A stretch of 64,000 nucleotides of DNA from Caenorhabditis elegans (taxonomy: Eukaryota > Nematoda > Chromadorea > Rhabditida > Rhabditidae), in NCBI RefSeq assembly GCF_000002985.6, contig NC_003279.8:11594001-11658000 (forward strand), read 5' to 3'. The notes under the pieces were generated by a model. That model had not been told where the DNA came from and made no database searches. It was given only the letters and a program-made list of their open reading frames with translations. The translations under genes were made by a program, and so were the position numbers. Below are positions 22,816 to 54,428 of this stretch, one piece after another. Each line of letters opens with the position of its first letter. The first letter of the stretch is position 1.

Positions 22816-25800
22816 CTAGCTGGGCTCTGAAAAATTAAGAAAATGTTGTATCACTACAGTACTCCTACAGTATCCCTACAGTACTCCTACATAACCGCTA
22901 TAGTACGCTACAGTAGTCCTAAAGTTTAGTGCCAACAGTAGCCCTACAGTAACCCTACAGCACCCCTACATTACCACCTCAGTTCTCCTACAGTACCCAA
23001 ACACTTCCCCTATCGTACTTCTACAGTACCCAACAGTAGCCCCGCAGTAATCCTAAAGCTTAGTGCTGACAGTACCCCTACAGTAACCCTACAGTACCCA
23101 ATACACTCACTCCAGTAGACTTCAACAGAAACATTCTCCACACTGCTCTCATCGTCGAGTTTGGTCTTAAAAATTTGTATATCCTCGTCCAGCTCTATCT
23201 GAAATTGTATGGCTAGGATTGGGCAAAAATCAATAAATATGTACTTACATCCAAAAACAAACGATCGAGAGGGTAATTAGTAAAAGTGAAAGTTCCGTTA
23301 ATCGGAATATCGGCGCATTTCTGGAAAAATTGACAAAATTTTTAGGCCTCTTGGTCTCGCAACGACAATTTTTAGACCCCTGGTACCATTACCCCTACTA
23401 CAGTACCACTACAGTAACCTACAGTACCCCAACGGTTCTTCTACAGTATCCCTACAGTGCTCCTACAGCACCCCCTACACTACCACAACAGTACCCCTGT
23501 ACTACCACTACAGTAACCTACAGTACCCCAACGGCCCTCCTAAAGTATCCCCACAGTACCCCTACAGTACCCCTACAGTATCCAATACTATACCCCTACA
23601 GTATCCCTACAGTACCCCTATAGTCAAATTTCCCCACTTACCGGGTAGATCGTAGGATAATGTCCACAAGCTCTGGCCGTTCCTCCACCATTGGCAATTT
23701 CCTCAATTCCAATCATTCGGATCACCACTTTTTCCACTGATTTTCCATCGATTTTTAAATCCAGCGCCCATCCAATCTAGATTTTATCAAGTTACGTATA
23801 TTGTATTATTATAATTTAAAAACGACATACGTTTCCCTTTTTCTCTGGAATTTCTCTGCGTAGAAATACATCACTCTCCGTATAATCCTCCACTCGTTCC
23901 ATTCCATTAAAATTGAATAATCTGATTGGTGATCCGTCTGGCTGGGTGTGTGAATACGAATTATTGATGAAATTGTATTTAAATTTTGCTGAATTTTCTC
24001 CAGTCTTAGGGGTCAGTGCAAAAGCCGGGCCACTGCCTTGATGGTATGTGGTGGAAATGTTGAGAAGGTGAGTTTGCGCTAAAACTACGGAAGTTGAAAG
24101 TAGAGTACCGAAATTTTGGTTTTTTATACCTAAAATTGCCCTAACCTACCGAATTCGTTGTGAGACTTTCTATACAGTACTCCTGCAGTACCCCTACAGT
24201 ACCCCTTCAGTTCACATATAGTACTACTACAGTACCCCAAATAGTGCACCTACAGTACCTCTACAGTTCTCCTGCAGTGCCCCTACATTACCCCTACAGT
24301 ACACCTACATTACCCATACAGTACTTCTACAGTCCCACTACAGTAACCCTGCAGTACCCCTATAGCACCCCTACAGTACCGCTACAGTACACATATAGTA
24401 CACCTACAGTACTCCGACATCATCCCCACAGGACCCCTACAGTACCCCTACAGTAGCCCTACAATACGTCTATTGTACTCATACAGTACTCCTACAGTAC
24501 CACTAAACTACCCCATACTGTACTCCTACAGTACCACTACAGTACCCCTACAGTACCCTACTCCTTACAGTACTTCTACAGTATCCCTGCAGTACCCCTA
24601 CAGAACCCCTACATTACCCCTACATTACCCCTACAGTACTCCTACAGTACTCCTACAGTACCCCTACAGTACCCCTACAATACCGCTACCGTACACATAT
24701 AGTACCCCATATAGTACTCCTACAGTACACCTACAGTACACATATAGTACCCCTACAGTACACCTACTTTACCCATACAGTAACCCTACAGTACCACTAC
24801 AGTAACACTACAGTAACCCTAACTTTTTCAAAGCTGCGGATTTTTTATGAGGCTTGCACCGCTTTGGACCACTTGATACTCAGTTTTTAATGCTTCAAAC
24901 TCACCCCAGTAGGCTTTAACCAAAAAACCGCTCTCAAGCTCCCTACATTCCATACACTTTTCAGCATGCCCAAATACTTTCATATTCTTGTACATCTTGA
25001 TCTGAAATTGATGTTTACTAGCTATGTAGTAGCTATAAGAATCACCAACTCCTAAGAAAAGGGTGTCAGCTTGTGGCTTATCAATGATCAAATCCTGGTT
25101 TACCGGAATTTCCATGCAATTCTGAAAATTTATTGGTGACTGTAGCACTTCAAAAGATTCTTCATAACAACCTCAAAAGTGTCCAGACAAGCCTCGGCTT
25201 TTCCTCCTCCGTTGAGTGTCTGATTTATTCCTACCATTCGAATTACCAGCGTCTCCAATACTTTACCAGTAGACGTCAAGTTGAACTTCCAGTAGATCTA
25301 AAACGAATACTATAGGGGTAATGTAGCGGTACTGTAGTGGTACTTTAGGTTACAGTAGTGATACTGTAGTGGTACTTTATTGGTACTATAGAGGTATTGT
25401 AAGGGATTCTGCAGGAGAACTGTTGGAATACTATAGGGATACTGTAGGAGGGCCGTTGGGGTACTGTAGGGTACTGTAGAGCTACTGGAGTGATAGTTTA
25501 GAAGTAGTTTAGAGGTAATGTAAGGGATACTGTATGAGTACTGTAGGAGTACTGTTGTAATACTGTAGGGGTACTGTAGGGGTACTGTAGGGGTACTGTA
25601 GGGGTACTGTAGGAGTATTGTAGGAGTATTGTAGGAGTGTCGTTGGGGTACTGTAGGTTAAGTAGTGGTACTGTAGTTGTAATTTCCAGTAGAACTAAAA
25701 CCCAATAAGTCTACGTTTGTGAAACTCAAACATACCATTCCTTCCTCATTACGTTTTTTCTTTTGCAAGTATACATCGTATGGTTCTTCATCAGAATGCC

Positions 25801-26263
25801 GTTCAACATTTTTCACGATAAATGGTTTAACCGCTGATCCATCTTTGTTAGTGTGCGAATACTTTCCGCGCACAATTTCGTACTTGAACGCAAAGTATCT
25901 ATGATTTCCCAATTGGATAGGTTCGTTCTGTGTTGTTAATGTCTGATGGTCAGGCTCTAGATCTGAAAATCGGGAGTTATCATAGGATTTTAGAGGGTAA
26001 AACTAAAACTCTTACCAGAATCAGTTGAAGAGCCCCCGAAAAGTGCAACCGCTAAAAAAAAAGAAAATAAAAAAAAGAGAGTTCCAACGAGGACCAAAGC
26101 TACGATCTTTTTAGAAGGATGCGATCTTGCTTCCGCTTGCGATCTTAAATTTGCTAAATTTCTTACGGAGAAGTGCTAAACTTAGTTTAAATTATTATAA
26201 AAAAACTTACATGTTTGTTCCGCTCAGCGGCAGTGGAGAGTATACAGGATTTTGCGATGACAT
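22816..26263 (-). CDS. Membrane protein with two PAW domains, left-arm copy (418 aa)
   Basis: This is the mirror copy of the gene at 29115-32562. It has the same 11 exons in reverse orientation (subtract the other copy's coordinates from 55378), and I saw no coding difference. The start codon at 26263-26261 opens MSSQNPVYSP, and the last exon ends in KPS. It lies head-to-head with the right-arm copy, about 2.85 kb apart. The identical sequence and shared intron repeats point to a very recent duplication or continuing gene conversion. Either copy, or both, could be expressed. Confidence 0.82.
24170..24820. repeat. CTACAGTAC tandem array (intron of left PAW copy)
   Basis: This is an irregular tandem array of ~10-11 bp units of the type CCTACAGTACC. 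It is mirrored at about 30560-31210, and shorter arrays sit at 22860-23100, 23380-23620 and 25310-25680 with their mirrors. Long open frames in these tracts are by-products of the repeat. Confidence 0.9.
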
Positions 26264-26339
26264 TAGTTTTTTGAAATGTGTCTCTAAAAATAGTCAGGTT
26301 TGGTTTGTAAAAACTTTGAAGTGACCCAAGGTCAAGAAG

Positions 26340-26780
26340 GAGATAATTAGTTTAAATCGATAAATTGCCGGAATTGAAAATTTCCGAAAGTGAAAATTTC
26401 CGGCAAACCGGCAAATCCGCAAATCGGCAAATTGCTGGAGTTTAAAATTTCCGGCAAATTGCCGATTTGCCGAATTTGCCGGAAAAACAGCAAGTGCCAA
26501 AAATTTCGGCAAATTGTGGCTTGCACATTTTTTTTGTTGGAAATTTCAGAATATCAATCCAATCGGTAAAATTGTTCGCGGCAATATCTAAAGAAAACGG
26601 GATAAAATTTTCAAAAAGGCACAGTTTTAAGTGTTTCCGTCTTATAAAAAACTCATCTAAAAGTTTCCGGAAAATTGATATCCGGCAAACGGCAAATCGG
26701 CAAGTCGGCAAACTGCCGGTTTACCGATTTGCCAGAAATTTGAATTTTCTCGTTCGGCAAATGACAAATCGGCAATTTGC
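26340..26780. repeat. CGGCAAATTGCCG inverted-repeat cluster (left arm)
   Basis: Dense GGCAAAT and ATTTGCC words form many overlapping small hairpins just upstream of the left PAW gene. The mirror is at about 28598-29038. Similar words form the ends of the U2-bearing elements near 34.06 and 55.3 kb. Confidence 0.8.
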
Positions 26781-27144
26781 CGAACGAGATAGTAGCTCAA
26801 AACTAAACACGTTAAAAACATTGATATAGTATGTAGAATTGTACCAATCTTAACTCCTACCGTTATTTTCTAAATTGGGTATTGGAGGTAGAGTGAAGTG
26901 AACTTAATCACAGAATGTGTTGCCCAATTTTTCACCTTCGCCCCCCCCCCCTCTCTGTCACATGGTATGTTGTTGTCGGTTCACTGGTTTTACATGGTGG
27001 GCGATAATTATGTTGACAAACACTTGACCAACACAAAAAAAAACAGAACCTAGGTATGTCAGAGATCTACAAACAATGTTACTTACAAGGTAGTATTTGC
27101 TATGTGAGAGAAAACTCTGACACACTCATAGTAAACGAAGCGAA

Positions 27145-27290
27145 TCCCCAAATCAGCCTAAAGCTTAGCCTAAGCCTAAGCCTGAGCCTGCGCCTAAGCT
27201 TTAGCCTAAACCAACGCCTAAGCCTAAGCCTATGCCAAAGTTTAAGCCTAGGCCTAAGGTTAAGCCTAATCCTAAGCCTAAGCCAGCCAC
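27145..27290. repeat. Degenerate telomere-type hexamer tract (left arm)
   Basis: This tract consists of irregular AAGCCT/TAAGCC units, the complement of TTAGGC, the nematode telomere hexamer. Its mirror is at 28086-28232. Confidence 0.85.
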
Positions 27291-27385
27291 TATCGAAAAC
27301 AAAAAGGGGTTTGTTCAACTTTGTGCATTGTGTTTTGAAAAACGTGCACCTTCAAAATCGCAAAAAATCAAAACCCCAAAATCGC

Positions 27386-27990: not shown

Positions 27991-28085
27991 GCGATTTTGG
28001 GGTTTTGATTTTTTGCGATTTTGAAGGTGCACGTTTTTCAAAACACAATGCACAAAGTTGAACAAACCCCTTTTTGTTTTCGATA

Positions 28086-28232
28086 GTGGCTGGCTTAGGC
28101 TTAGGATTAGGCTTAACCTTAGGCCTAGGCTTAAACTTTGGCATAGGCTTAGGCTTAGGCGTTGGTTTAGGCTAAAGCTTAGGCGCAGGCTCAGGCTTAG
28201 GCTTAGGCTAAGCTTTAGGCTGATTTGGGGAT
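28086..28232. repeat. Degenerate TTAGGC tract (right arm)
   Basis: This is the mirror of 27145-27290, with GGCTTAGGCTTAGG-type units in telomere polarity on the plus strand. Confidence 0.85.
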
Positions 28233-29114
28233 TCGCTTCGTTTACTATGAGTGTGTCAGAGTTTTCTCTCACATAGCAAATACTACCTTGTAAGTAACAT
28301 TGTTTGTAGATCTCTGACATACCTAGGTTCTGTTTTTTTTTGTGTTGGTCAAGTGTTTGTCAACATAATTATCGCCCACCATGTAAAACCAGTGAACCGA
28401 CAACAACATACCATGTGACAGAGAGGGGGGGGGGGGGCGAAGGTGAAAAATTGGGCAACACATTCTGTGATTAAGTTCACTTCACTCTACCTCCAATACC
28501 CAATTTAGAAAATAACGGTAGGAGTTAAGATTGGTACAATTCTACATACTATATCAATGTTTTTAACGTGTTTAGTTTTGAGCTACTATCTCGTTCGGCA
28601 AATTGCCGATTTGTCATTTGCCGAACGAGAAAATTCAAATTTCTGGCAAATCGGTAAACCGGCAGTTTGCCGACTTGCCGATTTGCCGTTTGCCGGATAT
28701 CAATTTTCCGGAAACTTTTAGATGAGTTTTTTATAAGACGGAAACACTTAAAACTGTGCCTTTTTGAAAATTTTATCCCGTTTTCTTTAGATATTGCCGC
28801 GAACAATTTTACCGATTGGATTGATATTCTGAAATTTCCAACAAAAAAAATGTGCAAGCCACAATTTGCCGAAATTTTTGGCACTTGCTGTTTTTCCGGC
28901 AAATTCGGCAAATCGGCAATTTGCCGGAAATTTTAAACTCCAGCAATTTGCCGATTTGCGGATTTGCCGGTTTGCCGGAAATTTTCACTTTCGGAAATTT
29001 TCAATTCCGGCAATTTATCGATTTAAACTAATTATCTCCTTCTTGACCTTGGGTCACTTCAAAGTTTTTACAAACCAAACCTGACTATTTTTAGAGACAC
29101 ATTTCAAAAAACTA

Positions 29115-32100
29115 ATGTCATCGCAAAATCCTGTATACTCTCCACTGCCGCTGAGCGGAACAAACATGTAAGTTTTTTTATAATAATTTAAACTAAGTTT
29201 AGCACTTCTCCGTAAGAAATTTAGCAAATTTAAGATCGCAAGCGGAAGCAAGATCGCATCCTTCTAAAAAGATCGTAGCTTTGGTCCTCGTTGGAACTCT
29301 CTTTTTTTTATTTTCTTTTTTTTTAGCGGTTGCACTTTTCGGGGGCTCTTCAACTGATTCTGGTAAGAGTTTTAGTTTTACCCTCTAAAATCCTATGATA
29401 ACTCCCGATTTTCAGATCTAGAGCCTGACCATCAGACATTAACAACACAGAACGAACCTATCCAATTGGGAAATCATAGATACTTTGCGTTCAAGTACGA
29501 AATTGTGCGCGGAAAGTATTCGCACACTAACAAAGATGGATCAGCGGTTAAACCATTTATCGTGAAAAATGTTGAACGGCATTCTGATGAAGAACCATAC
29601 GATGTATACTTGCAAAAGAAAAAACGTAATGAGGAAGGAATGGTATGTTTGAGTTTCACAAACGTAGACTTATTGGGTTTTAGTTCTACTGGAAATTACA
29701 ACTACAGTACCACTACTTAACCTACAGTACCCCAACGACACTCCTACAATACTCCTACAATACTCCTACAGTACCCCTACAGTACCCCTACAGTACCCCT
29801 ACAGTACCCCTACAGTATTACAACAGTACTCCTACAGTACTCATACAGTATCCCTTACATTACCTCTAAACTACTTCTAAACTATCACTCCAGTAGCTCT
29901 ACAGTACCCTACAGTACCCCAACGGCCCTCCTACAGTATCCCTATAGTATTCCAACAGTTCTCCTGCAGAATCCCTTACAATACCTCTATAGTACCAATA
30001 AAGTACCACTACAGTATCACTACTGTAACCTAAAGTACCACTACAGTACCGCTACATTACCCCTATAGTATTCGTTTTAGATCTACTGGAAGTTCAACTT
30101 GACGTCTACTGGTAAAGTATTGGAGACGCTGGTAATTCGAATGGTAGGAATAAATCAGACACTCAACGGAGGAGGAAAAGCCGAGGCTTGTCTGGACACT
30201 TTTGAGGTTGTTATGAAGAATCTTTTGAAGTGCTACAGTCACCAATAAATTTTCAGAATTGCATGGAAATTCCGGTAAACCAGGATTTGATCATTGATAA
30301 GCCACAAGCTGACACCCTTTTCTTAGGAGTTGGTGATTCTTATAGCTACTACATAGCTAGTAAACATCAATTTCAGATCAAGATGTACAAGAATATGAAA
30401 GTATTTGGGCATGCTGAAAAGTGTATGGAATGTAGGGAGCTTGAGAGCGGTTTTTTGGTTAAAGCCTACTGGGGTGAGTTTGAAGCATTAAAAACTGAGT
30501 ATCAAGTGGTCCAAAGCGGTGCAAGCCTCATAAAAAATCCGCAGCTTTGAAAAAGTTAGGGTTACTGTAGTGTTACTGTAGTGGTACTGTAGGGTTACTG
30601 TATGGGTAAAGTAGGTGTACTGTAGGGGTACTATATGTGTACTGTAGGTGTACTGTAGGAGTACTATATGGGGTACTATATGTGTACGGTAGCGGTATTG
30701 TAGGGGTACTGTAGGGGTACTGTAGGAGTACTGTAGGAGTACTGTAGGGGTAATGTAGGGGTAATGTAGGGGTTCTGTAGGGGTACTGCAGGGATACTGT
30801 AGAAGTACTGTAAGGAGTAGGGTACTGTAGGGGTACTGTAGTGGTACTGTAGGAGTACAGTATGGGGTAGTTTAGTGGTACTGTAGGAGTACTGTATGAG
30901 TACAATAGACGTATTGTAGGGCTACTGTAGGGGTACTGTAGGGGTCCTGTGGGGATGATGTCGGAGTACTGTAGGTGTACTATATGTGTACTGTAGCGGT
31001 ACTGTAGGGGTGCTATAGGGGTACTGCAGGGTTACTGTAGTGGGACTGTAGAAGTACTGTATGGGTAATGTAGGTGTACTGTAGGGGTAATGTAGGGGCA
31101 CTGCAGGAGAACTGTAGAGGTACTGTAGGTGCACTATTTGGGGTACTGTAGTAGTACTATATGTGAACTGAAGGGGTACTGTAGGGGTACTGCAGGAGTA
31201 CTGTATAGAAAGTCTCACAACGAATTCGGTAGGTTAGGGCAATTTTAGGTATAAAAAACCAAAATTTCGGTACTCTACTTTCAACTTCCGTAGTTTTAGC
31301 GCAAACTCACCTTCTCAACATTTCCACCACATACCATCAAGGCAGTGGCCCGGCTTTTGCACTGACCCCTAAGACTGGAGAAAATTCAGCAAAATTTAAA
31401 TACAATTTCATCAATAATTCGTATTCACACACCCAGCCAGACGGATCACCAATCAGATTATTCAATTTTAATGGAATGGAACGAGTGGAGGATTATACGG
31501 AGAGTGATGTATTTCTACGCAGAGAAATTCCAGAGAAAAAGGGAAACGTATGTCGTTTTTAAATTATAATAATACAATATACGTAACTTGATAAAATCTA
31601 GATTGGATGGGCGCTGGATTTAAAAATCGATGGAAAATCAGTGGAAAAAGTGGTGATCCGAATGATTGGAATTGAGGAAATTGCCAATGGTGGAGGAACG
31701 GCCAGAGCTTGTGGACATTATCCTACGATCTACCCGGTAAGTGGGGAAATTTGACTATAGGGGTACTGTAGGGATACTGTAGGGGTATAGTATTGGATAC
31801 TGTAGGGGTACTGTAGGGGTACTGTGGGGATACTTTAGGAGGGCCGTTGGGGTACTGTAGGTTACTGTAGTGGTAGTACAGGGGTACTGTTGTGGTAGTG
31901 TAGGGGGTGCTGTAGGAGCACTGTAGGGATACTGTAGAAGAACCGTTGGGGTACTGTAGGTTACTGTAGTGGTACTGTAGTAGGGGTAATGGTACCAGGG
32001 GTCTAAAAATTGTCGTTGCGAGACCAAGAGGCCTAAAAATTTTGTCAATTTTTCCAGAAATGCGCCGATATTCCGATTAACGGAACTTTCACTTTTACTA

Positions 32101-32562
32101 ATTACCCTCTCGATCGTTTGTTTTTGGATGTAAGTACATATTTATTGATTTTTGCCCAATCCTAGCCATACAATTTCAGATAGAGCTGGACGAGGATATA
32201 CAAATTTTTAAGACCAAACTCGACGATGAGAGCAGTGTGGAGAATGTTTCTGTTGAAGTCTACTGGAGTGAGTGTATTGGGTACTGTAGGGTTACTGTAG
32301 GGGTACTGTCAGCACTAAGCTTTAGGATTACTGCGGGGCTACTGTTGGGTACTGTAGAAGTACGATAGGGGAAGTGTTTGGGTACTGTAGGAGAACTGAG
32401 GTGGTAATGTAGGGGTGCTGTAGGGTTACTGTAGGGCTACTGTTGGCACTAAACTTTAGGACTACTGTAGCGTACTATAGCGGTTATGTAGGAGTACTGT
32501 AGGGATACTGTAGGAGTACTGTAGTGATACAACATTTTCTTAATTTTTCAGAGCCCAGCTAG
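29115..32562 (+). CDS. Membrane protein with two PAW domains, right-arm copy (418 aa)
   Basis: Exons are 29115-29167, 29235-29362, 29416-29642, 30081-30206, 30257-30328, 30377-30473, 31300-31547, 31602-31736, 32058-32129, 32180-32267 and 32552-32562 (TAG). The total is 1257 nt, all in phase. The protein starts with a ~30-residue cytoplasmic-type tail and one membrane segment (VALVLVGTLFFLFSFFL), then two PAW-like domains. Each domain is built from the same four-exon module (long, ~126-135, 72 and 88-97 nt) with motifs such as KFKYNFI..YSH, I-W-x-L/F and YW at the end. PAW is the glycan-binding C-terminal domain of peptide:N-glycanase, so an extracellular or lumenal sugar-binding role is inferred. 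Exon 2 uses an unusual TTTAAG acceptor, and the 48-nt intron at 30329-30376 has a weak GTTGGT donor, so these two joints are less sure. Confidence 0.83.
30560..31210. repeat. GTACTGTAG tandem array (intron of right PAW copy)
   Basis: This is the mirror of the array at 24170-24820. It separates the exons of the two PAW domains within one intron of about 0.8 kb. Confidence 0.9.
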
Positions 32563-33238
32563 GATTATCCTGCTCATTTGGTTTTTCATAATTTTTTTTA
32601 ATTAAAAAATGCATATTATCTATTCGCCGAAAAATTTCTCAAGAATTTTTTGAAAAATAAGGCCCTGAATAAATTTGTTTTTTTTAATCGACAATTTTCG
32701 ATTTTCGTATGAGACAAGCTGAAAAAAAAGAACGAAAAAAAAATTCTTAATACAAAAAAAATTGGCTAATATATTATAAGAAATCAATAAAATTACATGA
32801 AATTTGGGGATAGAAATCTGTAGGCACCAATTATTTGTGTATTGATATTTATCACTTGGAGAGGGGGAGCTGGGAAAAAGAAGAAGAAGAAGAAGAAGCT
32901 TCCAGGCTCGTGTGTACTCCCCGAGGACAAAAAATTGAAATCTTCTCCTCGCAGAGTTCACGAGAGGTGCCGCGTAAATCGACACGGAAGGAGCTTTTTC
33001 TGGAAGATTCTGGCGAGGAGGTAAAATTTGAAAATCTCCGGAGATTATTACATGTAAAATGTACAGAAAAATTAAAAAAAAAAGGTGATTATCTATATGA
33101 TTTTGATTTAAGACACTGCGTGGGCGGGGGGGGGGGGGGGGAGGAGAGAAAATTGGTGAATTTTGAGCAGTAAAATTGAGATTTTTCGTTGGAAATTGGA
33201 GCATTTTGTGCCAAAAAATAGTTGTAGTAGAAGTCCAG
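32563..33238. other. Palindrome-arm DNA without a gene
   Basis: This stretch mirrors 22140-22815. It holds a poly-G run of 16 and a GAAGAA tract (about 32878-32900). The open frames on both strands are low complexity, and I see no gene. Confidence 0.7.
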
Positions 33239-33336
33239 CTACACGTCAAAATGAGCCAATTGATTGTGTGTTCGGAGGTATCGAGGCGTCGATTTTTGTG
33301 GATTTGCACACGGAATAAGCCATAGGAGCTTGGGAC
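33239..33336 (-). pseudogene. Stranded duplicate of the DHHC gene's last exon
   Basis: This is the exact mirror of the exon at 22042-22139, including its TTTTTTCAG acceptor and TAG stop. No other DHHC exons are present next to it, so it cannot make an enzyme by itself. It marks how far the duplicated segment reached into the neighbouring gene. Confidence 0.9.
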
Positions 33337-34053
33337 CTGAAAAAATTGGATTTTGAAGTGAAAACTGATCCAAAAATCGATTTTTAGACGAATTTTAGCT
33401 CAAAAATCGGCGAAAAATCAATTTTTCTGATGCTACCGTACTCTGTAAGTACAATCGTGAGGAGACCAAAAAACTAGCTAAAAATTTGAATTTTCGAGGA
33501 AAAATTGGTGGAAAAATCGATTTTCAGTCGAATTTTGGACTAAAAGTTGGTGCTTTTAGTTGAAAAATGAGCTTTTTTCAGTTAAAATTTGATTTTTTTT
33601 TGGTCCGACACAGCTGAAACAAGTGCTACAGTAACCCGTGGTTTCGTGGTGAGATCCACCCCTGGGGGGTTACTGTAGCTCCGGTTTCAGTTGTGTCCGG
33701 TACTTTCTTATATACGGATCAATACATACACAAACATGCCACCATAGTTTCCTATTAATTGTGTCACATTTGACATTTGCAACCTCAAGCCAATAAATAT
33801 TCCATTTTAAACATTTACTTATTCATACTCTTGATTACATAGTAATAGTCTATAAAGTTTAGAAAAAAACACGTTTACTTTGTTTTCTGGTTCCTGCTTC
33901 GTTCTTGCCAGACTCTATTCGCATCCAGTGCGCATACTATGCGCGCCTTTTGCGCTTTAGGTGCGCGCGCCGGGCGGATTCTCTTTTTATCGCGCGCCAG
34001 GCGCAAAACGTGCGCGCCCCAGGAGAAGCGAACTGCCGAGTATATATATATAT

Positions 34054-34566: not shown

Positions 34567-34597
34567 ATGTATATGTACATATATATATATATATAAT

Positions 34598-36213: not shown

Positions 36214-36282
36214 ATATATTTGAACAAGGACATAAACATTTTTAAAACAGAAATGAAAGATGGAGGCCGTGTGAAGAGTTGA
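36214..36282 (+). pseudogene. Orphan PAW exon fragment
   Basis: After a TTTCAG acceptor the frame reads IYLNKDINIFKTEMKDGG and stops at TGA. It matches the start of the 88-nt fourth exon of PAW modules (compare MYLHEDIKIFKTEMKNGS in the next gene) but ends early. No upstream PAW exons are nearby, so it is a broken copy. Confidence 0.75.
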
Positions 36283-38947: not shown

Positions 38948-39001
38948 TAAAATTCTTACTGCTTTCCCCAAAAACCAGTTCAAATCTGTCGAAAAATTTA
39001 T

Positions 39002-40612: not shown

Positions 40613-42910
40613 ATGTCCGCAATTAATACACGAAACTCGCAAATTGAATCACTGTTAAGTTCAAATCGGTAAGATTTTTTCGGAAAACTTTTTTTTGGAA
40701 ACCAGTTATGTTTTACAGTAACTTTTCTACTCACTTACATAAATCAATAATGATGTTTAACCGTAGTTGTTGTTGTCAAAAAACACACTAAATTGATTCT
40801 GATTTTCAGATCGCATCCGGAGTTATCAAATTTATGGAGGCTGTGCATAAAGGGAATATTTATTTTTATTGTACTTGTATTCATTGTGTTTCTACCAGTG
40901 CCAATTGCTTTAGGACTAACGGAACTGCTTTTCGATGGTATGTTTTATGCTTAGGTTTAGGCTTATGTTTAGGTTTGGGCTGAAGCTGAGGCTAAGGCTG
41001 AGGCCTAAGCTCCTAGGCCTAGACCTAGGCCCCCCGGCTGATGTACATGATTAGGCTTAGGCTTAGGTTTAGGCTCAGGCTTAGTCTTTGACTATGGCAT
41101 AAGCTTAGTCTTACCTGTGCGGAGGACGAAAAAAGAAACTCTTTACCGAAAACTATAGCCTAAAAATTGCATGTTTCAGATTAATGTTGCATTAAAATCT
41201 TCAGTGGAGTAAATGAATATGCCTGATCAATTGCATTCAACACTTTTTTCATTCGCAAAACTTCATGCTTACAGAACGCCTCCAAGAATCACCGCCACAC
41301 AATTTTTCGGGCAAATCAATCGAATTAACATTAAATCCAGGAGAAGAATATATAAAGTTTACATACGATGTCATCAATGATGTATATTCACATTCACCAA
41401 AAAAAGGATTCATGGCCCAAGCTTATTATATGGAAAATATGAAACGTTGCGAAGAACCGGATCACATCATGGTTCATTTATGCAAGATATCCATTGATGA
41501 TGAAGCAACTGTATTAGAAAACACCACTATTAAACATAATTTATTAATTGTGTTCAGATTTCCTGGCACTTTGATTTAAAATCCATAGAACGACCTATTA
41601 AAAAAGTTGAAGTTCGCATGGGTGGATTTGCTGAATTCAGTGGTTCCAGTTTAGCGAGAGCGAAAGCCTGTATTGGAAACGTGAGAAGTGTAGTAGTTAT
41701 GCTGATCACATGAAGTTGTTGTTTAAGGTATGTAGGGTACTGGCCAATAACAATATTGAAAGGATCGATAACCCAGATATAAGCATTTTTACAGTTACTG
41801 TGGGTTTGAATTCAATCTCACTAATACTTAAAATAATTTATTTAAGGTAATGTTGCTTGGCAATTCTCAAATTTTCCGAACCAATTGGAATAAAGGAACC
41901 GAAATTGAAAGTTTCTTAGTTAGAATTTATCCTGGTGAGTGCACATCACATTTTTGTCAAACCGAAAAATTTGCCGAATTTGCCAAATTAAAAATTTGCC
42001 GCACACATTTATGTAGTTTGACCCACCAGCCGTCCGCGGGTTTTTAACTGCCGTTGCGTCAATTTTGGGACTTCTGTCAACCTGTTCTTTAGCATTTAAG
42101 GAATTCAATTTCGTTAGCATTTCAGAACTGTCAGATTTTCAGATACTCCCGAAGATTCCATTTCAAACAAAACGTTGGGCAAACTAATCGAACTTCCTTT
42201 CAACTCTGGAGAAGAGTATTCAAAGTTTACGTACGACATCATTAATGATGTATACTCACATTCGCCAAAAGAAGGGTTCATGTCTCAAGCTTATTATATG
42301 GACAATATTCAACGTTGCGAAGAACCAGATCATATCACGGTTCATTTATGCAAGATATTCATGGAAAAAACCGCAACTGTATTAGAAAGCAGCTTTAAAA
42401 ATTAAATATCACATATAATTTACAGATTTCCTGGCACTTTGATTTGCAATCTTTTGGACAACCAATTAGAAAAGTGGAAATTCGTATAAGTGGATTTGCT
42501 GAATTTAGTCCTGATGACAGTTATGCAATGGCAAAGTCATGCATAGGGAATGTAAGGAATCTTGTGGTGTATCTTTTAAAAAATCGTTGTTTAAGGAATG
42601 CATTAAAATTATCAATGACAATATTGCAACATTCGAGAATCCAATAACAGATGTTTTAAAAATTACCGTGAGTTTTTGTTCTAGTTATGCAGTTCCAAAA
42701 AGAGAATAACCAAATTAAGGTAATACTGAGTGGCAATGCTCAAGTTTTCCGAACCAATTGGAATAAAGGAACTGAGATTGAAAGTTTTTCAGTCAGAATT
42801 TATCCTGGTGAGTTCGCAACATATATACATATATACATATAAACATACATATATTCATATATACATATAACAACACCCCAATTTTCTAATTTTCAGAGCT
42901 ACCAAATTGA
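40613..42910 (+). CDS. Membrane protein with two PAW domains (412 aa)
   Basis: Exons are 40613-40668, 40810-40937, 41275-41510, 41558-41680, 41728-41799, 41847-41934, 42143-42378, 42426-42551, 42596-42667, 42720-42807 and 42897-42910 (TGA). The total is 1239 nt. The N-terminal tail (MSAINTRNSQIESLLSS) leads into one membrane segment (GIFIFIVLVFIVFLPVPIAL), then two PAW modules. Each module has exons of 236, 123-126, 72 and 88 nt. The two modules are close to each other (both have PGEEY/SGEEY, KFTYD, YSHSPK, CEEPDHI, ISWHFDL and FRTNWNKGTEIES), so they arose by tandem duplication. Intron 2 carries a degenerate TTAGGC tract (40955-41110). The intron between modules carries GCCGAATTTGCC words. 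Confidence 0.85.
40955..41110. repeat. Degenerate TTAGGC tract in a PAW-gene intron
   Basis: Irregular TTAGGC/TTAGGT units fill the intron between 40938 and 41274. Related tracts lie at 27145-27290, 28086-28232 and 45220-45430. Confidence 0.8.
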
Positions 42911-44427: not shown

Positions 44428-44481
44428 TATAATAAAGAAATTTTATTTTTACAAAAAATCTCACAGTACCAAAGAGTATTT

Positions 44482-46414
44482 TCAGGTCCATCTCCCCAAG
44501 CAACGTTGTTCGTTTGCTTCATTATCAATTTTTCCGATTGTCTCCATGCAAAACTGAAACAATGTTAACATTATTCAATAGGCTCGAAGAGTTGTACCTC
44601 GTTAGACAACTGATTAAGCTGGGTACGAGAGAAGTTAGTGCAGGCGGTGAAAGATGGCCGTTCTTCCGGAATCAGATTCCAGCAAGACTTCATAAAGTAG
44701 TACCTCAATTTTGAAAATATTAAACATTGAGGATAGAGAGTTATTATTCTTACATCTTAGGAGCGCAATGCTCCGGTTCGGAAAGCGTATTTCCCTTTCG
44801 AAGGAAATCAGCCAAAACTTGCAAAAATGCAAAATTGTTGGAATCCAATTCGTTGTACGGACTTTCTCCCAGGGAGAATATTTCATAAAGGCAGACACCA
44901 TAAGACCAAACATCCGATTTCGAATCAAATCTTATTTTTTCTTCTTCTTCTTCGAAACACTCGGGGGCCAACCACTTTATTGGAAGAGCGGTGTCCGTTG
45001 TTTTTGTTCTGCAAAAATGTTGATAAGCATCACTGAAATATGGGATGAAAAATACCTATAATAATCTTTTTTATCATGACGTCTGGCCAATCCAAAATCT
45101 GCTATTTTTAGAACTCCATTGTTTTTAATAAGAACATTTCGCAAAGCCAAATCGCGATGGACACACTTGAATAAATAACACGCACGTGAATATACAACAC
45201 TGATAGCTCATTGTTTTTGTTAGGCTTAAGCTTACTTTTAGGCTTAGGATTTGGCTTAGGCTCAGGCTTAGGCTTAGGCTCATGATTGGACTTTAGCTTA
45301 GGTTTAGGCATAGACTTGGGCTTAGGCTTATGCTCAGGTTTAAGCTTATGTTTAGGCATAGGCTTAAACTTAGTCGTGGACTTAAGTTTAGGCTTGGACG
45401 TAGGCTTAGGCTTTGGCTTAAGCTAAGGCTGGACGGAGGAAGAGAGAAAAATAAATTTCAGGAATTTCAAGAATTGTAAATAAGATAAATGAAAAATCAA
45501 AAAGTGAGCAATTAGTGTTGCATATTTACGATCGGCAAAAAACCTTCATTATGGTTACATCTTACCGGCACTCGTTCCAAATATTGCATTCCATTGGCAA
45601 TTTGAAATGTGAAAGAAAACAAATCAGCTTTACAAAGTGATTTTTCATCCAGTTTCACTGAATCTTTATCGAATTTACATTTTCTCAAAAACTTCAAAAG
45701 ATCGCCATCCTCCACGTACTCCGTTACTATCATCACACTGAAATAGAACATTATAGGATCATATTGTAGTTTAAAAAAACTCACTTTCTCTGTGTTACTA
45801 CTCCGACCAGAGACAAAATGTTTGGATGTTTTTCCATGCTGCACATTACGTTCAACTCCTCATGAAGTATTTTCTTCTGTCTAATATTATGTATGTTTGA
45901 TGGTTCTAGAAATTGAAAAATTTCAGATAAGACTATAGCTTTCAAAAGTAACCTTTAACAGCCACAATCATGAAGTTAGAATTCCTTCTCTCTCTTCTGA
46001 GCTCTGCACGATAAACTGTACCAAAAAATCCTGACCCAATATAGTTTTCCGTAGAAATTTTCAAATTTTCAGGATCAATTTCCAGATGGTTGTCACCGAT
46101 AAGAGATTTGATTGTTTCACTGATTAGTTCAGATTCAGTCTGAATTCTCGTCCTATCTAAATCGTACTTGTTCGAAATGGGAAGAGATGTCGTAAGAAGT
46201 GAACGTTCAACATCTTCTTCACTTCCTCTGCAATTTGATTTAAAGTATTTTAGCTTGAGAAGTCAAGGTAAAAAAAAAAAACGTACCCCAAGTCTGAATT
46301 GCTCGAGTTCGTCAAAATGCGTCTCCAAATGTATAAAAGGAATAATGAAAGTGCTAAAAATAAAAGAACAAAAATGATATAAATGAATATTGGAAACAAA
46401 TTTCTTAACATCAT
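44482..46414 (-). CDS. Membrane-anchored tyrosine kinase without ectodomain (412 aa)
   Basis: Exons, in coding order, are 46414-46287, 46227-45953, 45905-45785, 45737-45566, 45165-45056, 45008-44754, 44703-44598 and 44553-44482, totalling 1239 nt. The protein starts directly with a membrane segment ([20 protein letters not shown]) followed by basic residues, a ~60-residue juxtamembrane part and a full kinase domain. Visible motifs are [10 protein letters not shown] (glycine loop), IVAVK (ATP lysine), HRDLALRN (catalytic loop), DFGLAR, paired activation-loop tyrosines (KKDYYR), WLAPE and [20 protein letters not shown] marks the tyrosine-kinase group. It resembles the nematode KIN-15/16-type receptor kinases with very short or absent extracellular parts. 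The 45166-45565 intron carries a TTAGGC-type tract. Confidence 0.88.
45220..45430. repeat. Degenerate TTAGGC tract in a kinase intron
   Basis: Irregular GGCTTA/GGTTTA/GGCTCA units run through the intron between exons 4 and 5 of the kinase gene. Confidence 0.8.
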
Positions 46415-46686
46415 CTCTGAAATCAACTAGTCATTTTTTGGACTTTGTGCAATCGGCATCAAGAAGATTATATCTGTCACATCTGACACCGATTCCTAAT
46501 TTTGGTGTTTTGATGTTCTTATCATATTAACTAGATAGCTACGGAATTCTCTATCTTCTTCTACATGACTTTCTTATTGTTATACGATAGATCTAAAGAG
46601 TGAATAGCATAGTTAAGAGAAAAGCAGTGTACGGGCTGAATTATTTATAAGCCAAGTACCCGCCAGTAAAAAATCTAATCCTATTT

Positions 46687-48206
46687 TCAAATCCATTTTT
46701 TATAACATCGTTGTTCATTCGCTTCACTCTCGATTGTTTCAATTGTCTTTATGAAGAACTGAAAATATTTTCAATGTTAAAAAGTTACTTCAATTAAACA
46801 TACCTCTTCCGATAACTTGTTAAGTCGGATCTGAAAAAATCTAGTGCAGGCCGAGAACGATGGACGTGCTTCAGGAATCAGATTCCAACAGGCTTTCATG
46901 AAAGTATATCTGAATATAAATATTGTTACTAGTTCATCAGAGTGGGACTTTTCATACATTTCCAGAGTGCAATGCTCAGGCTGGGAGAGCTGATTTCCCT
47001 TTCTCAGAAAGTCTGCCAAAAGTAGATCATACGCAATATTGTTGGATTCTAATTCCTTGTACGGTGGTTCTCCGAGGGAGAATAATTCGAAAAGGCAAAC
47101 ACCGAAAGACCAAACATCCGATTTTGAATCAAATTTGTTAATACTTCCTTCAAAACACTCTGGTGCCAGCCAGTTCAGTGGGATAGCAGTGCCTACTGAT
47201 CTTGTTCTAGCGAAAGTTTAATAAATCGATTATAGGATTGTTAAGGCTCACCTATAATAGTCCTTATTCTCATGCCGTCTTGCCAATCCAAAATCCGCAA
47301 TTCTTATTACACCATTTCTTTTGATCAGAACATTCCGGAGAGCCAAATCACGGTGAACACACTATAACAAGGTAGTTATTCTTGAAAAACATTATAAGAA
47401 CCTACGGGGACCCGTTCCAAATACTGCATCCCATGTGCAATTTGAAATGCAAACGAAAGCAAGTCAGCCATGCAGAGTGCATCGCCATCGGGTTCCAACT
47501 GATATCTCACATAACTTTTGCGTTTCAAAAACTTCAAAAGATCTCCACCTTCCACGTACTCCATAATTAACATGACACTGAAATTAAATATTGAGTGATG
47601 ATTTTACAAGGAAAAATATATTAAACTTGCTTTCTTTCAATAACCACTCCTACCAGCGACAATATATTTGGATGCTTCTTCATTCCGCACATCACTTTTA
47701 ATTCTTCGTAGACTAACTTCTTTTGCGAAATATCATGATTGTTTGAAGATTCTACAAAAATTCGGGTTACTTCTTAATTGGACACATTTTACCTTTTACA
47801 GCTACATCGAAATAAATTGAATGGCTTGAAACTTCTTGCGTCGGCTTCCTTCTGAGCTTTGCTCGATACACCACGCCAAAAAAACCCGACCCGATTGATT
47901 GTTCATTGGAAATTGTTAAATTCTTAGGATCAATTTCTAAGTGATTTTCATTGACGAGGGATTCGATTTTTGCTTTAACCTGATCAAATGGAGTCAGAGA
48001 AGAAGATGGTTCTTCCAGATCAATAAGATTAACTAGATTCGACGTTGGAACTGGTAATGTGCTCGGAGGGTGAGAAATCGGGAGAAGTGACGTTTCCAGA
48101 TCTAGTTAGTTTTTTCTGTAAATTGAACTTTTATTATATTAAAAAATAATGGCCAAAACATTATCTTACCTTTTAATCTTATGTTTTGTTGATTTAGTGG
48201 AGCCAT
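46687..48206 (-). CDS. Tyrosine kinase paralogue, membrane anchor uncertain (391 aa)
   Basis: Exons, in coding order, are 48206-48170, 48101-47793, 47751-47631, 47577-47406, 47361-47252, 47206-46958, 46909-46804 and 46758-46687, totalling 1176 nt. Kinase motifs [29 protein letters not shown] and [12 protein letters not shown] are intact. The exon layout matches the neighbouring kinase exon for exon. Intron 3 has a GC donor (GCAAGT) in place of GT. The in-phase start gives a protein without a membrane segment. A hydrophobic stretch starting MDQQKFLIIIYC at 48291 precedes it but is in another frame. Either a frameshift removed the anchor, or an unseen exon supplies it. Confidence 0.8.
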
Positions 48207-48624: not shown

Positions 48625-51600
48625 ATGCCACCGAGTGTGCCGGGCTACTCACAAAGAGATCCACTGCTTACCATCTCGGATTCGTAAGTTTTCGTTTATT
48701 ATACAATGGAAAATTAATAATGGCATCGGTTTCCACATACCAAAATACCTATGTAGCTTCAATTTTATACTGATGTAATAAGAAAAATTGAGCTGTCATG
48801 GGACCCTGTGAGACTCCTTTTATAACGAGCATTTTTTCAAACCAGAATGTTCAGATACAGTTTTTAGTAGACTTGTTAGTAAGTTAAAGTTTGGCATAAA
48901 AAACTCCAAAACCACAGACTTATGTGTTTGACAGGGTGCTCATAATCCAAACGGGGAAAAATTCAACAATTAATTTTCCAGTTCACTCGAAGATAGTCCT
49001 GCTTCACGGATCAAATCGCTATGCGTGTATCTTCTAGTATTTGCAGCATTTTGATTATTTCTGCCCCAATCGCTCTTTTTCTGACTGATGTATTCTATGG
49101 AGACCCTAAAGCACGTGATTCAAGTAGGAAGCGATATATAAGTATTCCACAAGTCTCTAATATTGTTTCAGATCTGATAACACGCTATATAACAATCTTA
49201 GCAAATACTACATCAATTTTGTTCGCCCGTGATTCGACATTTTTAGCTTCAGAAACCACTAGTGAGTTAACTAGTCCCGTTACACGTCAAAAAATTAATT
49301 TTTCAGCAAACCCAGCGCCTATGAGTGCCGGGATTCAAACGCGAGGATCGTATGCGAATACAAAAAGTTTACCAGTTCCAGGCGAGTTGTTGATAAAATA
49401 CCATAATTAGTGTAAAACGTTTCAATTTCAAAGCAAAAATATTTTTAGATTTACCACCATCTACTCTGAAAACTACAACTAAACCTGTTATCACCGCTAC
49501 GAGATCAACTGCTAGAATCACTACCACTAGTAAGTCATGGTGTTTCAAAGTTTTTGATACATGGTACACTTTAATTATTGTCGGTTTTTTTCCGGAATCC
49601 GACATAATTTTGGGTATCCTATAATTCAATTTTAAGCAAAACCGGCTACAGCCAGCACTACCAAAGCAACTACGAGTGAGGTGGTGTCTTATTACTTTGA
49701 AATTAGTTTGTGTTTTCAGAAGCTTCGACTTTAGAACCACCAGAGGCTCCTACTAAAGCATCAACTGCTAGAACTATCTCCACAACTGGTGAGTTATTTC
49801 AGTTTTGCTGAATCAATTTTCAATTTCACCTAATGAGTTTGTTATATATCGAATTTGTAATGATAAGAAGAGCTTTATTAGAAAGCGATGAGCAGTAAGA
49901 TGTAGAATAGTAGAATAGTGAGGAATGATCGAATATGAGAGATTCGATCAAGGAATAAACATGTGGATAATACGTGGAATAATAATAAGAGAGTTCGAGA
50001 GCTTCTTATTGTCGAGTTGTCATCGCCAAGTAGTGCGAACACGTTCACGTCTCGCCGTAACAGAGTTTTTTTCAACAAACTAGGCTTACCACCAGCTACT
50101 ACAAGAACTACGACAAAACCACTTACTTCCACTGTGAGAACAACTCCTACCACAAGGTCTACTAGTAAGACACATTATTTTGAAGTAACTGGTTAACTAA
50201 AAAATCAAAACAACCCAGAGGAACTATAATGCGTCTGTAAATGTGAGCTTTCAGAGACTACCACTTCTCCGCCAACGACAACTGTCACTCCTCGCACAAC
50301 AAGATCATCGACTGCTAGAACTGTAGCCACAACTAGTGAGTCATTAATGTTTTCTTAAAATTTTATTTTCATAAAAACGGCTTTGTACGAATAATGATAT
50401 TATGTAGAAACCTCACCATCTACTCTGAGAACTACAACAAAACCACCTACTACCACAACGATTGCTACAACAAGAATCACTACTAGTAAGTTATGCTGAA
50501 GGTTTGAATTTTTACCAAAAAAAAAGAAACATTAGGTCGATTTAACAACAAAGTCAGTTCCGAAATCTACCACAAATTTGAATTTTTAGAGACAACAACT
50601 TCTCCGCCGCCATTTACAACAACAGTCACTACTACTACATCAGCTGCTAGAACTATTGCCACAACAAGTAAGTTCAGCTTGCTAGTGCGAATTTTAGTGC
50701 GTATCCTTTAAGAATATAGCTTTTTGCGCATAGGTTATCAATAATAATGAATTTCAGCACCTATAAAAACTGTTCCACCGGTTAAAGTGTTCGGCAAAGC
50801 AATCAAACCGATACCAACACCTGGAGAAAACATCCTCGATTTTGAGTATGATATTGTTAAAGACAAGTACTCCCAAAGTCCGGAAAATGGATTATTTTCT
50901 CAAGTTTATGATGTGAAGAACATCCGACGTATCAGAGATACTAATACAAATGAGGTTTATTTTGGCTTGGTCGATGGAGCTGATCATGGAACTGTGAGTG
51001 GGTGTGAATTTAACAGTGTATAATGGTACGACTTTCAGATTTCGTGGCGCTTTGATAAAGATTTAAATAACAACAAGATTGGAAGAGTAGATATCGAAGT
51101 TCGAGATGATGAAGAATATAGTTACAATGGCAAAGCAATAGCGACTTTTTGCATAGCTGATGTAAGAAACATGTTACCGTTTTGATATCAGTTGTTTAAT
51201 TTTAGGAATGCTGGATCATTCGTAGAAACTCGGTTACAAGTATTTACGATACAAAACACGGCCAAATCAACGTCATAGTAAGGTTGTATGTAGTTAATTC
51301 TGATAGCAGTTATAATTTCAGTTCATTTTGACTGGTGGCGACGCACAAATATTTAGGAGAAGTTTGGGAGAGGAAGCACATTTTCCCAGTTGGAAGTTGA
51401 CAGTTCACACAAGTGAGTAAAAACACCGTAGGTCTTATTCTCGGGTAGTGGACAATTTAAAAGACACAGACATATCGAGATCAAATGGGGCGTGTAGATT
51501 TACGAAGCGGTTTTTTATAAACGTTTTGTAATTCACAGTCTTCCCGTGCCATGTCCCCCATTTTTTTTATACACTTTGAGGCTGGTTAGTGGAAAAAATA

Positions 51601-54428
51601 ATTGTATAGTTGCAGAAAAATAAAATTCTCTCGGTTTTCCCCTCCCCCCCACCCCTTCTGAATAGTCAATAAAAACTTGGAAACTTATATTTACCAAAAA
51701 CTATTTCTAACTATTTTTTATTAATACTCAGGTGGACTGGACCAAGCAAAAAAGCTTACAAACCAGGGGTGGGCGGCTAACCGTTTTTTTCGGCTAACGG
51801 CTAATTCGGCTTAAGCCGATTTTCAAAATTTTCGGCTAACGGCTAATTCGGCTGAAGCCGTGTTTCAAAATTTTCGGCTAACGGCTAATTCGGCTAATTG
51901 GGGAAAAAGTCGGCTATCGGCTAATTCGGCTAAAATTAGCCGGGTTAGCCGGTCGGCTGAAATTCGGCTAATTCGGCTAACTTTATCAGTTTCAGATTTT
52001 TTTTGTTGATTCAGCAAGTTTTTCACTAATTTTGTGGGTTATCAAGTAAGTAACAATAATTCAATTGGTAACAGAAACAAAAACACACTGAAAGAAATTA
52101 AACAATAATAATTTGTTGTTAGCCGAATTAGCCGAATTAGCCGAACGAATATTTCGGCTAATTCGGCTAATGTCTGCTAATATCGAAACTCGGCTAACGG
52201 CTAATTCGGCTAATCGGTAAAAAGGTCGGCTAACGGCTGATTCGGCTATTAGCCGCCCACCCCTGTTACAAACCGCGTAGGAGCTAGCAGGTTCCTGCGC
52301 GGTTTGTAGGCGTTTCGTGTGTGGTTCAGTTCATCTGGGTTTGCGGCTGTGTAGTGAAAAACGTTATATTATAGTTACAAAAATAACTAAACTCGGAACA
52401 GTTCTGAATTGGGCTCTTCGAATATGGCGTCCTCATCGTCCTCCCAATTTTTATAGTTCTTGAACTTGATACATTAACGAAAATGTAATATTTTACCAAA
52501 AACTATTTCTAACTATTTTTTAAGTGCTTGGCAAACCTATCAGACTGACCCCAACGCCGGATCAAGGCGAAATAGACTTCTCTTATGACATTGTCAGTGA
52601 CAGGTATTCACAGATTCCGACTCGCGGATTCATTTCTCAAGCTTCGGAGTTCAACTTACTGGAACGAGTGGAAGATACCGACGAAAACACGGTTTATTTG
52701 ACACCAATAGAAGGAGAGAATCAAGGAAATGTGAGTAGAAGCTTAAGCTGACGAAATTAATTTTAAATTTTTAAAAATCAACATTTTGAAGATATCCTGG
52801 TTTTTCAATTTCGAATTAATTGATAAACCCGTTAAATTGGTGATCGTTAAAATAAGAGGAGTCTGTAAAAAGAGTGCTGCGAAGGCGGAAATATGCTTGA
52901 CAAAAGTGAGACGTTTTCAATTTAAAAGTGTGCAATTTTTCATTTCAGAAATGCTGGAAGATTTCTCAGAGCACAACGATTTTTCATAAACCCACTGGTA
53001 GAATAATGAGGATAACTGTAAGTTTCCGATTAACGCGAAGCTATGAATAATTTTTTATATCTTTGGATATCTTTACCCGGCAACTCAACAATTTTTGCAC
53101 AGCGATTGGGAGTCAACACGGAAGTTCCCAGTTTATTTGTGAAAATTGTTACTGGTAAGTAAAATGTTTGCATTAGGGGCTTTTATGATGGACAAAGGGG
53201 GCATCCCCTTCGGTTTTAAGAGCTCTTTTTGGCGCCCTTTTTGTTGGAAACTGGTGCCCTAAAACCATATTTTAACTCCACATTCATCCGCTTAAATTCT
53301 GTGACTCCAGTTTCAAATAAAAGTGACGCCGAGTTCCCCTAGGTCTTTTATTTGAAAACCAGCCGTGGACCGCACTTTTTTGAGAAAACACATTAGATAT
53401 ACGGTGTCTATCGCGGACCTCGATCGATGTCTGCTGCGCATTTAGCATAAGGTTTCCCAAAATTTCGTTGCTCTGTTTAGAGATCAAACTACATAGTGAC
53501 GGAAGGACACGCGCTTTATATGTAGTAAATTGATTATTACTAGAGAGTTACGATTTCCGAAAAAAATACATGTAAACTTACAAAATAACTTAGAACTACA
53601 ATAGGCAAAAGCTCGCAATTCCGCAAATTGGCGCCGCCGTGCGGGTAGAAAATGTGAAAATCGGGATGAAAAAATACCATTTTCTCTTGAATCAAAGACC
53701 TACGTCTCCCATAAAATCCCTAATTTAAATAGCAGGACGAACAATCTTTTAGGACTTGGTGAAGCAATCAAGCTGACACTAAAGCCAGGAGAAAGCGAAC
53801 TTCACTTCACGTATGACATCATCAATGACAAATATTCTCAAAGTCCAGAAAAGGGATTCATATCCCAGGCTTCCGAATATAACCTGCTGACACGAGTTGT
53901 GGACACCGACAAAAATATAGTTTATTTGACTCCTATGAAAGGAGAGTGCCAAGGAAATGTAAGTGGCCTGAATTTATGAAACTAGGACCTAGTTACTAGG
54001 TAACACATTTTCTGCAGATTTCGTGGCTCTTGGACCTGGAATCCATCGGGAAACCAGTGGAAGCAGTCATCATAAAAGTTGAAGACTTTTCAGAGTTCAA
54101 TAACCAAACCTCGGCAAAAGCACAATGTTGCACTACAGATGTGAGTTAGTGATAAGCGCGTTTTAAGGAAAATTCTGTGGTCCCTGAAATAGAGAAAAAA
54201 GTACAGTAATTTTCAGAAATGTTGGAATCTTTCTATGAACACGCCTTTACAAATCTTAGAGCCAAACAGTAAGACATTGAAAATTTCGGTTGGTTTTGAA
54301 TTTCACTTTAGTTACTGTATTCATGATTTCAGATTGAATTGGTTGCCGGCACACAATTGTTCAAGCGGGATTTTGTTAAAGGGATGAATGCCGACAGTTT
54401 ATCAGTAATAGTTCTCACCTATAAGTGA
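48625..54428 (+). CDS. Membrane protein with Thr-rich stalk and three PAW domains (755 aa)
   Basis: Twenty-three exons total 2268 nt in phase: 48625-48683, 49047-49123, 49172-49261, 49307-49381, 49449-49529, 49637-49675, 49720-49788, 50084-50164, 50255-50335, 50408-50485, 50590-50667, then PAW1 50758-50993, 51039-51161, 51206-51277, 51322-51412; PAW2 52525-52730, 52792-52905, 52949-53017, 53103-53154; PAW3 53753-53958, 54018-54140, 54217-54288, 54333-54428. A short tail and a membrane segment (LIISAPIALFLTDVF) lead into seven small phase-1 exons encoding TTTKP/ARTT-rich repeats. These form a likely O-glycosylated stalk. Then come three PAW modules. Intron 4 uses a GC donor. Exon 2 uses an acceptor inside the membrane segment, because the acceptor at 48981 would frameshift. 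The last PAW2 exon is shortened by loss of its normal acceptor. Confidence 0.8.
51765..52265. mobile_element. Non-autonomous element with 9-bp target duplication
   Basis: The element starts AGGGGTGGGCGGCTAA and ends TTAGCCGCCCACCCCT. TTACAAACC lies on both sides (51756-51764 and 52266-52274). The interior is made almost entirely of CGGCTAATT/AATTAGCCG words. A 9-bp duplication fits Mutator-like elements rather than Tc1/mariner (TA). It lies in the intron between PAW1 and PAW2 of the 755-aa gene. Confidence 0.75.

Follow-up and report, generated by a model that had tools for sequence, protein, structure and literature searches.

A cluster of predicted type II membrane proteins with PAW ectodomains on Caenorhabditis elegans chromosome I, possibly derived from png-1

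What kind of protein is encoded by the PAW-domain genes clustered in a 64,000-nucleotide stretch of Caenorhabditis elegans chromosome I (NC_003279.8, positions 11,594,001 to 11,658,000; this whole stretch is hereafter the window), and does the domain do there what it does in peptide:N-glycanase (PNGase)? PAW takes its name from PNGases and other worm proteins (PMC9102325), and binding of high-mannose glycans has been reported for this domain in mammalian PNGase (PMC9102325, PMC2791212); these papers, like all others cited, are represented here by excerpts. The original prediction, made from the letters of the window, was a lectin-like family of surface proteins. Our best reading, with a probability of roughly 60%, is that the genes encode type II single-pass surface or endosomal receptors with PAW modules derived from png-1, a sorting tail and an altered ligand specificity. 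That a membrane-anchored PAW family is real appears likely.

The exon models, assembled manually by following reading phases and splice sites, have open frames and consensus splice sites; they are sequence-based, and transcript support covers part of gene E. Six loci were rebuilt within the window, with 22816 and 54428 as outermost bases, exactly as originally proposed. The models reproduced two identical doubles, a truncated single, a single, a double and a triple with a stalk, each of which had been foreseen:

22816..26263, minus strand: gene A1, tail, membrane anchor and two PAW modules, 418 aa, 11 exons (translation identical to that of A2 via mirror coordinates)
29115..32562, plus strand: gene A2, tail (MSSQNPVYSPLPL), anchor and two PAW modules, 418 aa, 11 exons (gene model; Pfam PAW, E = 2.3e-12)
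36667..37420, plus strand: locus B, one PAW module (gene model; Pfam, E = 3.6e-5, below the Pfam cut-off)
37668..38847, plus strand: gene C, tail, anchor and one PAW module, 281 aa (gene model; Pfam, E = 7.1e-7, below the Pfam cut-off)
40613..42910, plus strand: gene D, tail (NSQIESLL), anchor and two PAW modules, 410 aa (gene model; Pfam, E = 1.1e-26)
48625..54428, plus strand: gene E (W04G5.9), tail (YSQRDPLL), short anchor, Thr-rich stalk and three PAW modules, 746 aa in the model (gene model; Pfam, E = 6.2e-34)

The assignment to PAW, claimed at the outset, was upheld by Pfam (PF04721) and by similarity to solved PNGase PAW structures. Among the five distinct proteins, A2 (47.6 bits), D (94.4 bits) and E (118 bits) exceeded the curated cut-off of 31.4 bits, and B (24.1 bits) and C (29.7 bits) fell below it. 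A profile of nine window modules matched the PNGase chains 2i74, 2g9f and 2g9g, which we take to be mouse, at E values of 1e-10 to 1.5e-10, the match to 2i74 (E = 1e-10) spanning positions 13-89 of the 161 in the profile, that is, its first half. Besides the PNGase chains, the profile met only two solved structures, at E values of 0.65 and 0.97. Neither a transglutaminase-type catalytic core nor a C-type lectin domain was matched by Pfam in the five window proteins at E values up to 1; an NCBIfam scan of D and a plasmid search gave no match.

The module is a fixed four-exon unit, as had been supposed: each of the 11 window modules gave four exon matches in an exon profile scan, and the outer module borders in the gene models are in phase 1, so that gain or loss of whole modules keeps the frame. 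The variable copy number was likewise recovered, with one to three modules per locus. The short tail followed by one membrane segment was found in the models of A1, A2, C, D and E; this part of the original prediction did not hold for B, for which a start exon and an anchor were looked for during modelling and neither was found.

The first exon encodes about 20 residues, and the second contains a single hydrophobic segment; in 9 of the 10 anchors compared, the residues preceding this segment are more positively charged than those following it. This bias predicts that the N terminus lies inside and agrees with the single N-terminal membrane segment originally described. The long conserved region preceding the hydrophobic segment argues for an uncleaved signal anchor rather than a cleaved signal peptide, and A1, A2, C, D and E are predicted to be type II single-pass membrane proteins. 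A short cytosolic tail and an uncleaved signal anchor would thus place one to three PAW modules in the lumen of the endoplasmic reticulum (ER) or of endosomes, or outside the cell. N-glycosylation sequons numbered 73 in 41 modules, compared with a shuffle mean of 48.8 (standard deviation 6.6; 0 of 500 shuffles as high), although the modules are paralogues, the identical A1 and A2 copies included, and hence not independent. A cysteine pair near the border of exons 2 and 3 was found in 39 of 42 module groups, a count that takes in PNG-1 and both A copies; a fragmentary exon 3 accounts for one of the three misses. The pair was rejected as proof that the modules lie outside the cell, PNG-1 having the same one.

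Sorting signals in cytosolic tails that are read by adaptor protein complexes follow the consensus YxxO or [DE]xxxL[LI]. Sixteen tails were compared: nine carry YSQx[DE][PS]LL (E, the locus at I:13.24 Mb and seven on chromosome V), five of A type carry YSPL, YSTL or YSAL, D has NSQIESLL, and C has neither motif. The five A-type tails fit YxxO, the nine YSQx[DE][PS]LL tails have Gln at position -4, D fits in part and C does not. A scan of the whole genome for the codon pattern of YSQxDPLL gave nine matches and its reversed control 0. Eight of the nine lie at family loci, E included (one of them an anchor without PAW), and the ninth is a near miss with Phe in place of the first Leu. Because the matches are nearly confined to family loci, the E tail and the chromosome V tails are very likely truly homologous, across the deep split of the anchored family described below. 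In the proposed mechanism the tail would act as a sorting signal, and the most likely route of the proteins would be a cycle between plasma membrane and endolysosomes.

The window cluster is one corner of a large C. elegans PAW family. Searches of the same genome with single modules located more exons on chromosome V (1.08-1.10 Mb and 3.29-3.42 Mb) and further loci at I:13.24 Mb, at IV:1.227 Mb and, in a png-1-like gene, at I:11.387 Mb. The exon scan covered 17 stretches, namely 16 fetched loci (two pairs of them overlapping) and the window, and its counts are therefore lower bounds. It gave 50 module groups, PNG-1 included, 36 of which had all four exons. Subtraction of PNG-1, the chromosome IV copy, a remnant in the window and two split-module fragments left at least 45 ectodomain modules, three of which have matches to exons 2 and 3 only. 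Chromosome V accounts for 33 of the 45, the window for 11 and I:13.24 Mb for one. Grouped by position, the modules fall at about 20 loci. Several chromosome V models have S/T-rich linkers between modules, shorter than the stalk of E. A weak anchor-like match (E = 0.0026) was also seen at V:1088474-1088596.

Where might the ectodomain have come from? The gene at I:11.387 Mb, which we take to be png-1 and to encode the cytosolic PNGase, lies about 0.2 Mb from the cluster. Its model, made automatically, displays the PNGase core, and its PAW part is split at the same three inner exon borders as the ectodomain modules. A tree of 42 modules was rooted at the midpoint; E, B, C and the chromosome IV copy sit on long branches in it, which makes its basal branching order a best guess. 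PNG-1 grouped with the chromosome IV copy (support 98/92) and the D modules with the E modules (99/80); these seven were joined at 100/99, and the remaining 35 rows formed one group, also at 100/99. From the shared exon borders, the tree and the nearness of the two loci we infer that a copy of the four final png-1 exons came to lie behind an anchor exon on chromosome I; most chromosome V copies would have arisen later than this anchored copy. A wider proposal, to which we give somewhat less than an even chance, is that the window holds the earliest branches of a receptor class founded by the png-1 tail: a cytosolic domain would have become an ectodomain and lost some of its PNGase-specific residues; retaining its sorting tail, it would then have multiplied to at least 45 modules at about 20 loci, with new ligand specificities.

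Ligand specificity was approached by comparing 23 columns in which the mouse PNGase fragment and PNG-1 agree (chain numbering) with 40 anchored-type modules; this set excludes the two identical A1 copies and modules lacking matches to exons 1 and 2 together, and many of its chromosome V rows end early. Seven residues were largely kept: Tyr24 (39 of 40), Tyr31 (39), Arg56 (38), Ile78 (33), Trp80 (40), Phe82 (36) and Ile96 (32). Intermediate values were obtained for Tyr66 (26), Asp25 (25), Leu67 (25), Asn63 (23), Asp29 (12), Ser86 (12), Lys70 (11) and Arg97 (11). Mostly lost were Trp62 (0, with 7 gaps), Met64 (1, 4 gaps), Glu52 (2), Asp61 (5, 4 gaps), Glu59 (5, with Asp in 26), Arg69 (6, 5 gaps) and Ser79 (7); the Gly72 column, with 29 gaps, was not usable. 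By this comparison the fold core is retained while part of the patch shared by PNGases is gone, and an unchanged PNGase specificity looks unlikely. The modules would instead bind an outer or luminal glycan or glycoprotein other than the PNGase ligand. The high-mannose binding of the original prediction is accordingly weakened: the core residues are there, and several PNGase-shared residues including Trp62, which may or may not touch mannose, are lost.

Selection was estimated from the ratio of nonsynonymous to synonymous substitution rates (dN/dS). For six chromosome V tails, themselves found by similarity, dN/dS was 0.20 over 15 pairs. Among 15 module pairs, 13 had values of 0.43 or less and the other two had 0.79 and 1.01, which suggests that the modules are mostly under purifying selection. 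The modules at V:1093019 and V:1095884, both of one chromosome V locus, stand out with a dN/dS of about 1.0 compared with 0.2-0.4 for most other pairs, possibly reflecting relaxed or diversifying selection.

Gene E was identified as W04G5.9 by a serial analysis of gene expression (SAGE) tag and a reverse primer given in PMC2216036, the excerpts of which describe W04G5.9 as a 'predicted N-glycanase' and report that adult worms skip a 123-nt exon, as reverse transcription PCR and sequencing confirmed. The tag and reverse primer exactly match exon 50758-50993 spliced to the exon at 51206, with 51039-51161 omitted; the W04G5.9 primers are not contiguous in the window DNA. Some stalk and module exons of W04G5.9 are thus present in adult transcripts, according to these excerpts. 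The parts of the gene are:

48646..48668 (I:11642646-11642668), plus strand: YSQRDPLL codons of the E tail, common to the chromosome V relatives (genome codon-pattern scan)
49449..50667, plus strand: stalk exons, Thr/Ser/Pro-rich (gene model, composition)
50758..51412, plus strand: module 1, with exon 51039-51161 skipped in the published isoform (gene model, PMC2216036)
52525..53154, plus strand: module 2 (gene model, exon profiles)
53753..54428, plus strand: module 3 (gene model)

The stalk has 173 residues, 43% of them Thr and 64% Thr, Ser or Pro. In the anchor region (48982-49047) an upstream acceptor would run into a stop, and the model takes an acceptor before 49047, which yields the short anchor; by eye, the part omitted is like the first half of the D anchor. 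A frame break in the fourth exon of module 2 was considered and rejected: the full-length frame is open at 53067-53153, the missing piece is an AG before it, and the model begins the exon at 53103.

Several observations weigh against receptors of the kind we favor. B has no anchor, and the anchor of E is short in the model and shows no charge bias. On chromosome V, open tail and anchor exons at V:3262571-3262812 form an orphan anchor: the 5 kb fetched there lack a convincing PAW exon. In the tails, Gln rather than an acidic residue stands at -4 before the Leu pair, and C lacks a sorting motif. The cysteine pair does not discriminate between compartments. The tree is midpoint-rooted with the E modules on long branches, C branches first among the 35 rows at 88/80 only (not starred), and the position of B among the A and chromosome V branches is not settled by it. 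The transcript evidence misses the tail and anchor exons of W04G5.9, whose forward primer, as given in the excerpts of PMC2216036, starts at an ATG within the stalk region and spans a junction between bases near 50500 and 50591, where the model has the splice 50485/50590; this calls one stalk junction into question. The loss of PNGase residues may mean that glycan binding was lost altogether, and the excerpts of open-licence literature searched contain neither localisation nor ligand data on an anchored member.

Other explanations share part of this evidence. The proteins could have kept the mannose binding of PNGase and serve as high-mannose lectin receptors for recognition or immunity, sensing microbes or damaged self. 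The glycan binding reported for PNGase PAW (PMC9102325) speaks for this, as do the tandem copies and recent duplication, which suit recognition families; the type II layout with tail motifs also resembles that of DC-SIGN. Trp62, Met64, Glu52, Asp61 and Arg69 are, however, mostly lost, if only as part of the patch (Asn63 is kept in 23 and Lys70 in 11 of the 40 modules), most module pairs are under apparent purifying selection (13 of 15 at 0.43 or less, one near 1.0), and the open-licence excerpts searched contain no infection data on a PAW gene. We consider such receptors unlikely. Slightly less likely still are type II proteins resident in the ER or the secretory pathway that handle glycoproteins in the lumen, where they would parallel the cytosolic enzyme. 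The ER lumen is rich in high-mannose glycans, and RSR or KKR stands near the membrane in some tails; such RxR-like residues are, however, not common to all ten anchors compared, YSQx[DE][PS]LL or YS[PTA]L occurs in 14 of the 16 tails, and mucin-like stalks are generally found more often on surface proteins.

Degenerating or rarely expressed duplicates with no shared function would account for the truncated B, the PAW remnant in the window, the anchor without PAW and the lack of a clear acceptor for the full fourth exon in module 2 of E. Such decay is at odds with dN/dS values well below 1 in the tails and in 13 of 15 module pairs, with the long open frames in the models of A, C, D and E, and with the transcription of part of W04G5.9 in adults (PMC2216036); it is very improbable as an account of the family. 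Receptors with png-1-derived modules and changed specificity remain our preferred reading.

The following features of the window lie around or between the PAW genes:

21682..27385, plus strand: left arm of a 5.7 kb inverted repeat with A1 inside (99.947% identity over 5706 aligned positions)
27991..33696, minus strand: right arm of the repeat with A2 inside (self-alignment, 99.947%)
36100..36273, plus strand: degenerate remnant of PAW exons 3 and 4 (exon profiles, exon 3 E = 5.3e-6, exon 4 E = 3.5e-8)
44465..48206, minus strand: two genes of tyrosine-kinase type that leave little space for an ectodomain, not of the PAW family (domain matches, reading frames)

The repeat arms are about 0.6 kb apart and near-perfect, which would fit a very recent duplication or gene conversion. 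An 11-bp repeat of the TACAGTACCCC type forms long arrays within the A1 and A2 introns (24173-24821, 30557-31205 and others). The spacer between the arms contains, at 27732-27899 on the minus strand, a possible start exon for a signal-peptide-like N terminus with three Cys (MLLLLFLFPKTFADSP...).

Both ectodomain-less tyrosine kinases announced inside the cluster were found; in the reading frames shown, both have a hydrophobic stretch near a possible start and leave little space for an ectodomain. One of the two is probably kin-23 (W04G5.6). According to excerpts of PMC5913292, kin-23 was among many kinases whose RNA interference affected survival on Aeromonas (90.48 percent, SD 16.50, standard deviation, vs 28.39 percent, p<0.05). 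The kinases were rejected as partners of the PAW proteins: nearness is the sole link seen, and kin-23 is one of many in that kinome screen.

Two published W04G5 primers match the window exactly. Exons of a Ras-family GTPase, presumably rab-11.2 (W04G5.2), as expected here, lie between genes C and D (39061-39659, minus strand). Directly after D, at 43227-44306, an open frame with matches to a DDE transposase and a paired-type helix-turn-helix resembles a Tc1/mariner-like element. Two U2 small nuclear RNA genes (34164-34354, minus strand; 55503-55693, plus strand) flank loci B to E, and their surroundings (34041-34554 and 55305-55796) are 92% alike. Two similar tandem genes follow at 56047-59781, the first of which is W04G5.8 by primer match and has DUF684; with the primer at 56402 and a DUF684 protein, W04G5.8 was rejected as a PAW gene. 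The excerpts of PMC9924947 list W04G5.8 as selected for correlation with stress resistance.

In open-licence literature searched with PAW terms and gene names, the excerpts obtained include no study of the window proteins as membrane receptors and no account of their topology, tail motif, family size or png-1 origin. Another worm gene, W09G12.8 ('Peptide N-glycanase/PAW domain'), appears in the excerpts of PMC3651406 among RNA sequencing targets tested with mab-5. About 20 worm loci would thus make up a family whose tail is conserved and trafficking-like and on which this literature yielded no study; the terms 'N-glycanase' or 'mannose-binding' in the database names of its genes are to be read with caution. 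If our reading is right, the family would be a clean case of a domain changing compartment, from the tail of a cytosolic enzyme to a luminal or outer ectodomain, by copying of a fixed exon set, and a single genome would contain the donor gene, the near branches and the expanded branch together.

Compared with NGLY1/PNG-1, the window proteins are alike in the PAW domain by profile, in the exon borders of C. elegans png-1 and in the core residues; they differ by the membrane anchor, the tandem copies, the S/T-rich linkers, the loss of several PNGase-shared residues and the lack of a transglutaminase core match. With type II C-type lectin receptors of the DC-SIGN type they have in common a short tail with a Tyr or Leu-Leu motif, one anchor, a neck or stalk and a terminal domain of sugar-binding type, whereas their ectodomain is PAW, no C-type lectin domain was found in the five proteins, and their glycan binding is putative. 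The C. elegans receptor kinases of the KIN-15/KIN-16 type, which have tiny ectodomains, fit the two kinases of the cluster, neighbours only of the PAW genes. In layout the PAW proteins are like a type II endocytic receptor, and by membership they are neither C-type lectins nor glycanases.

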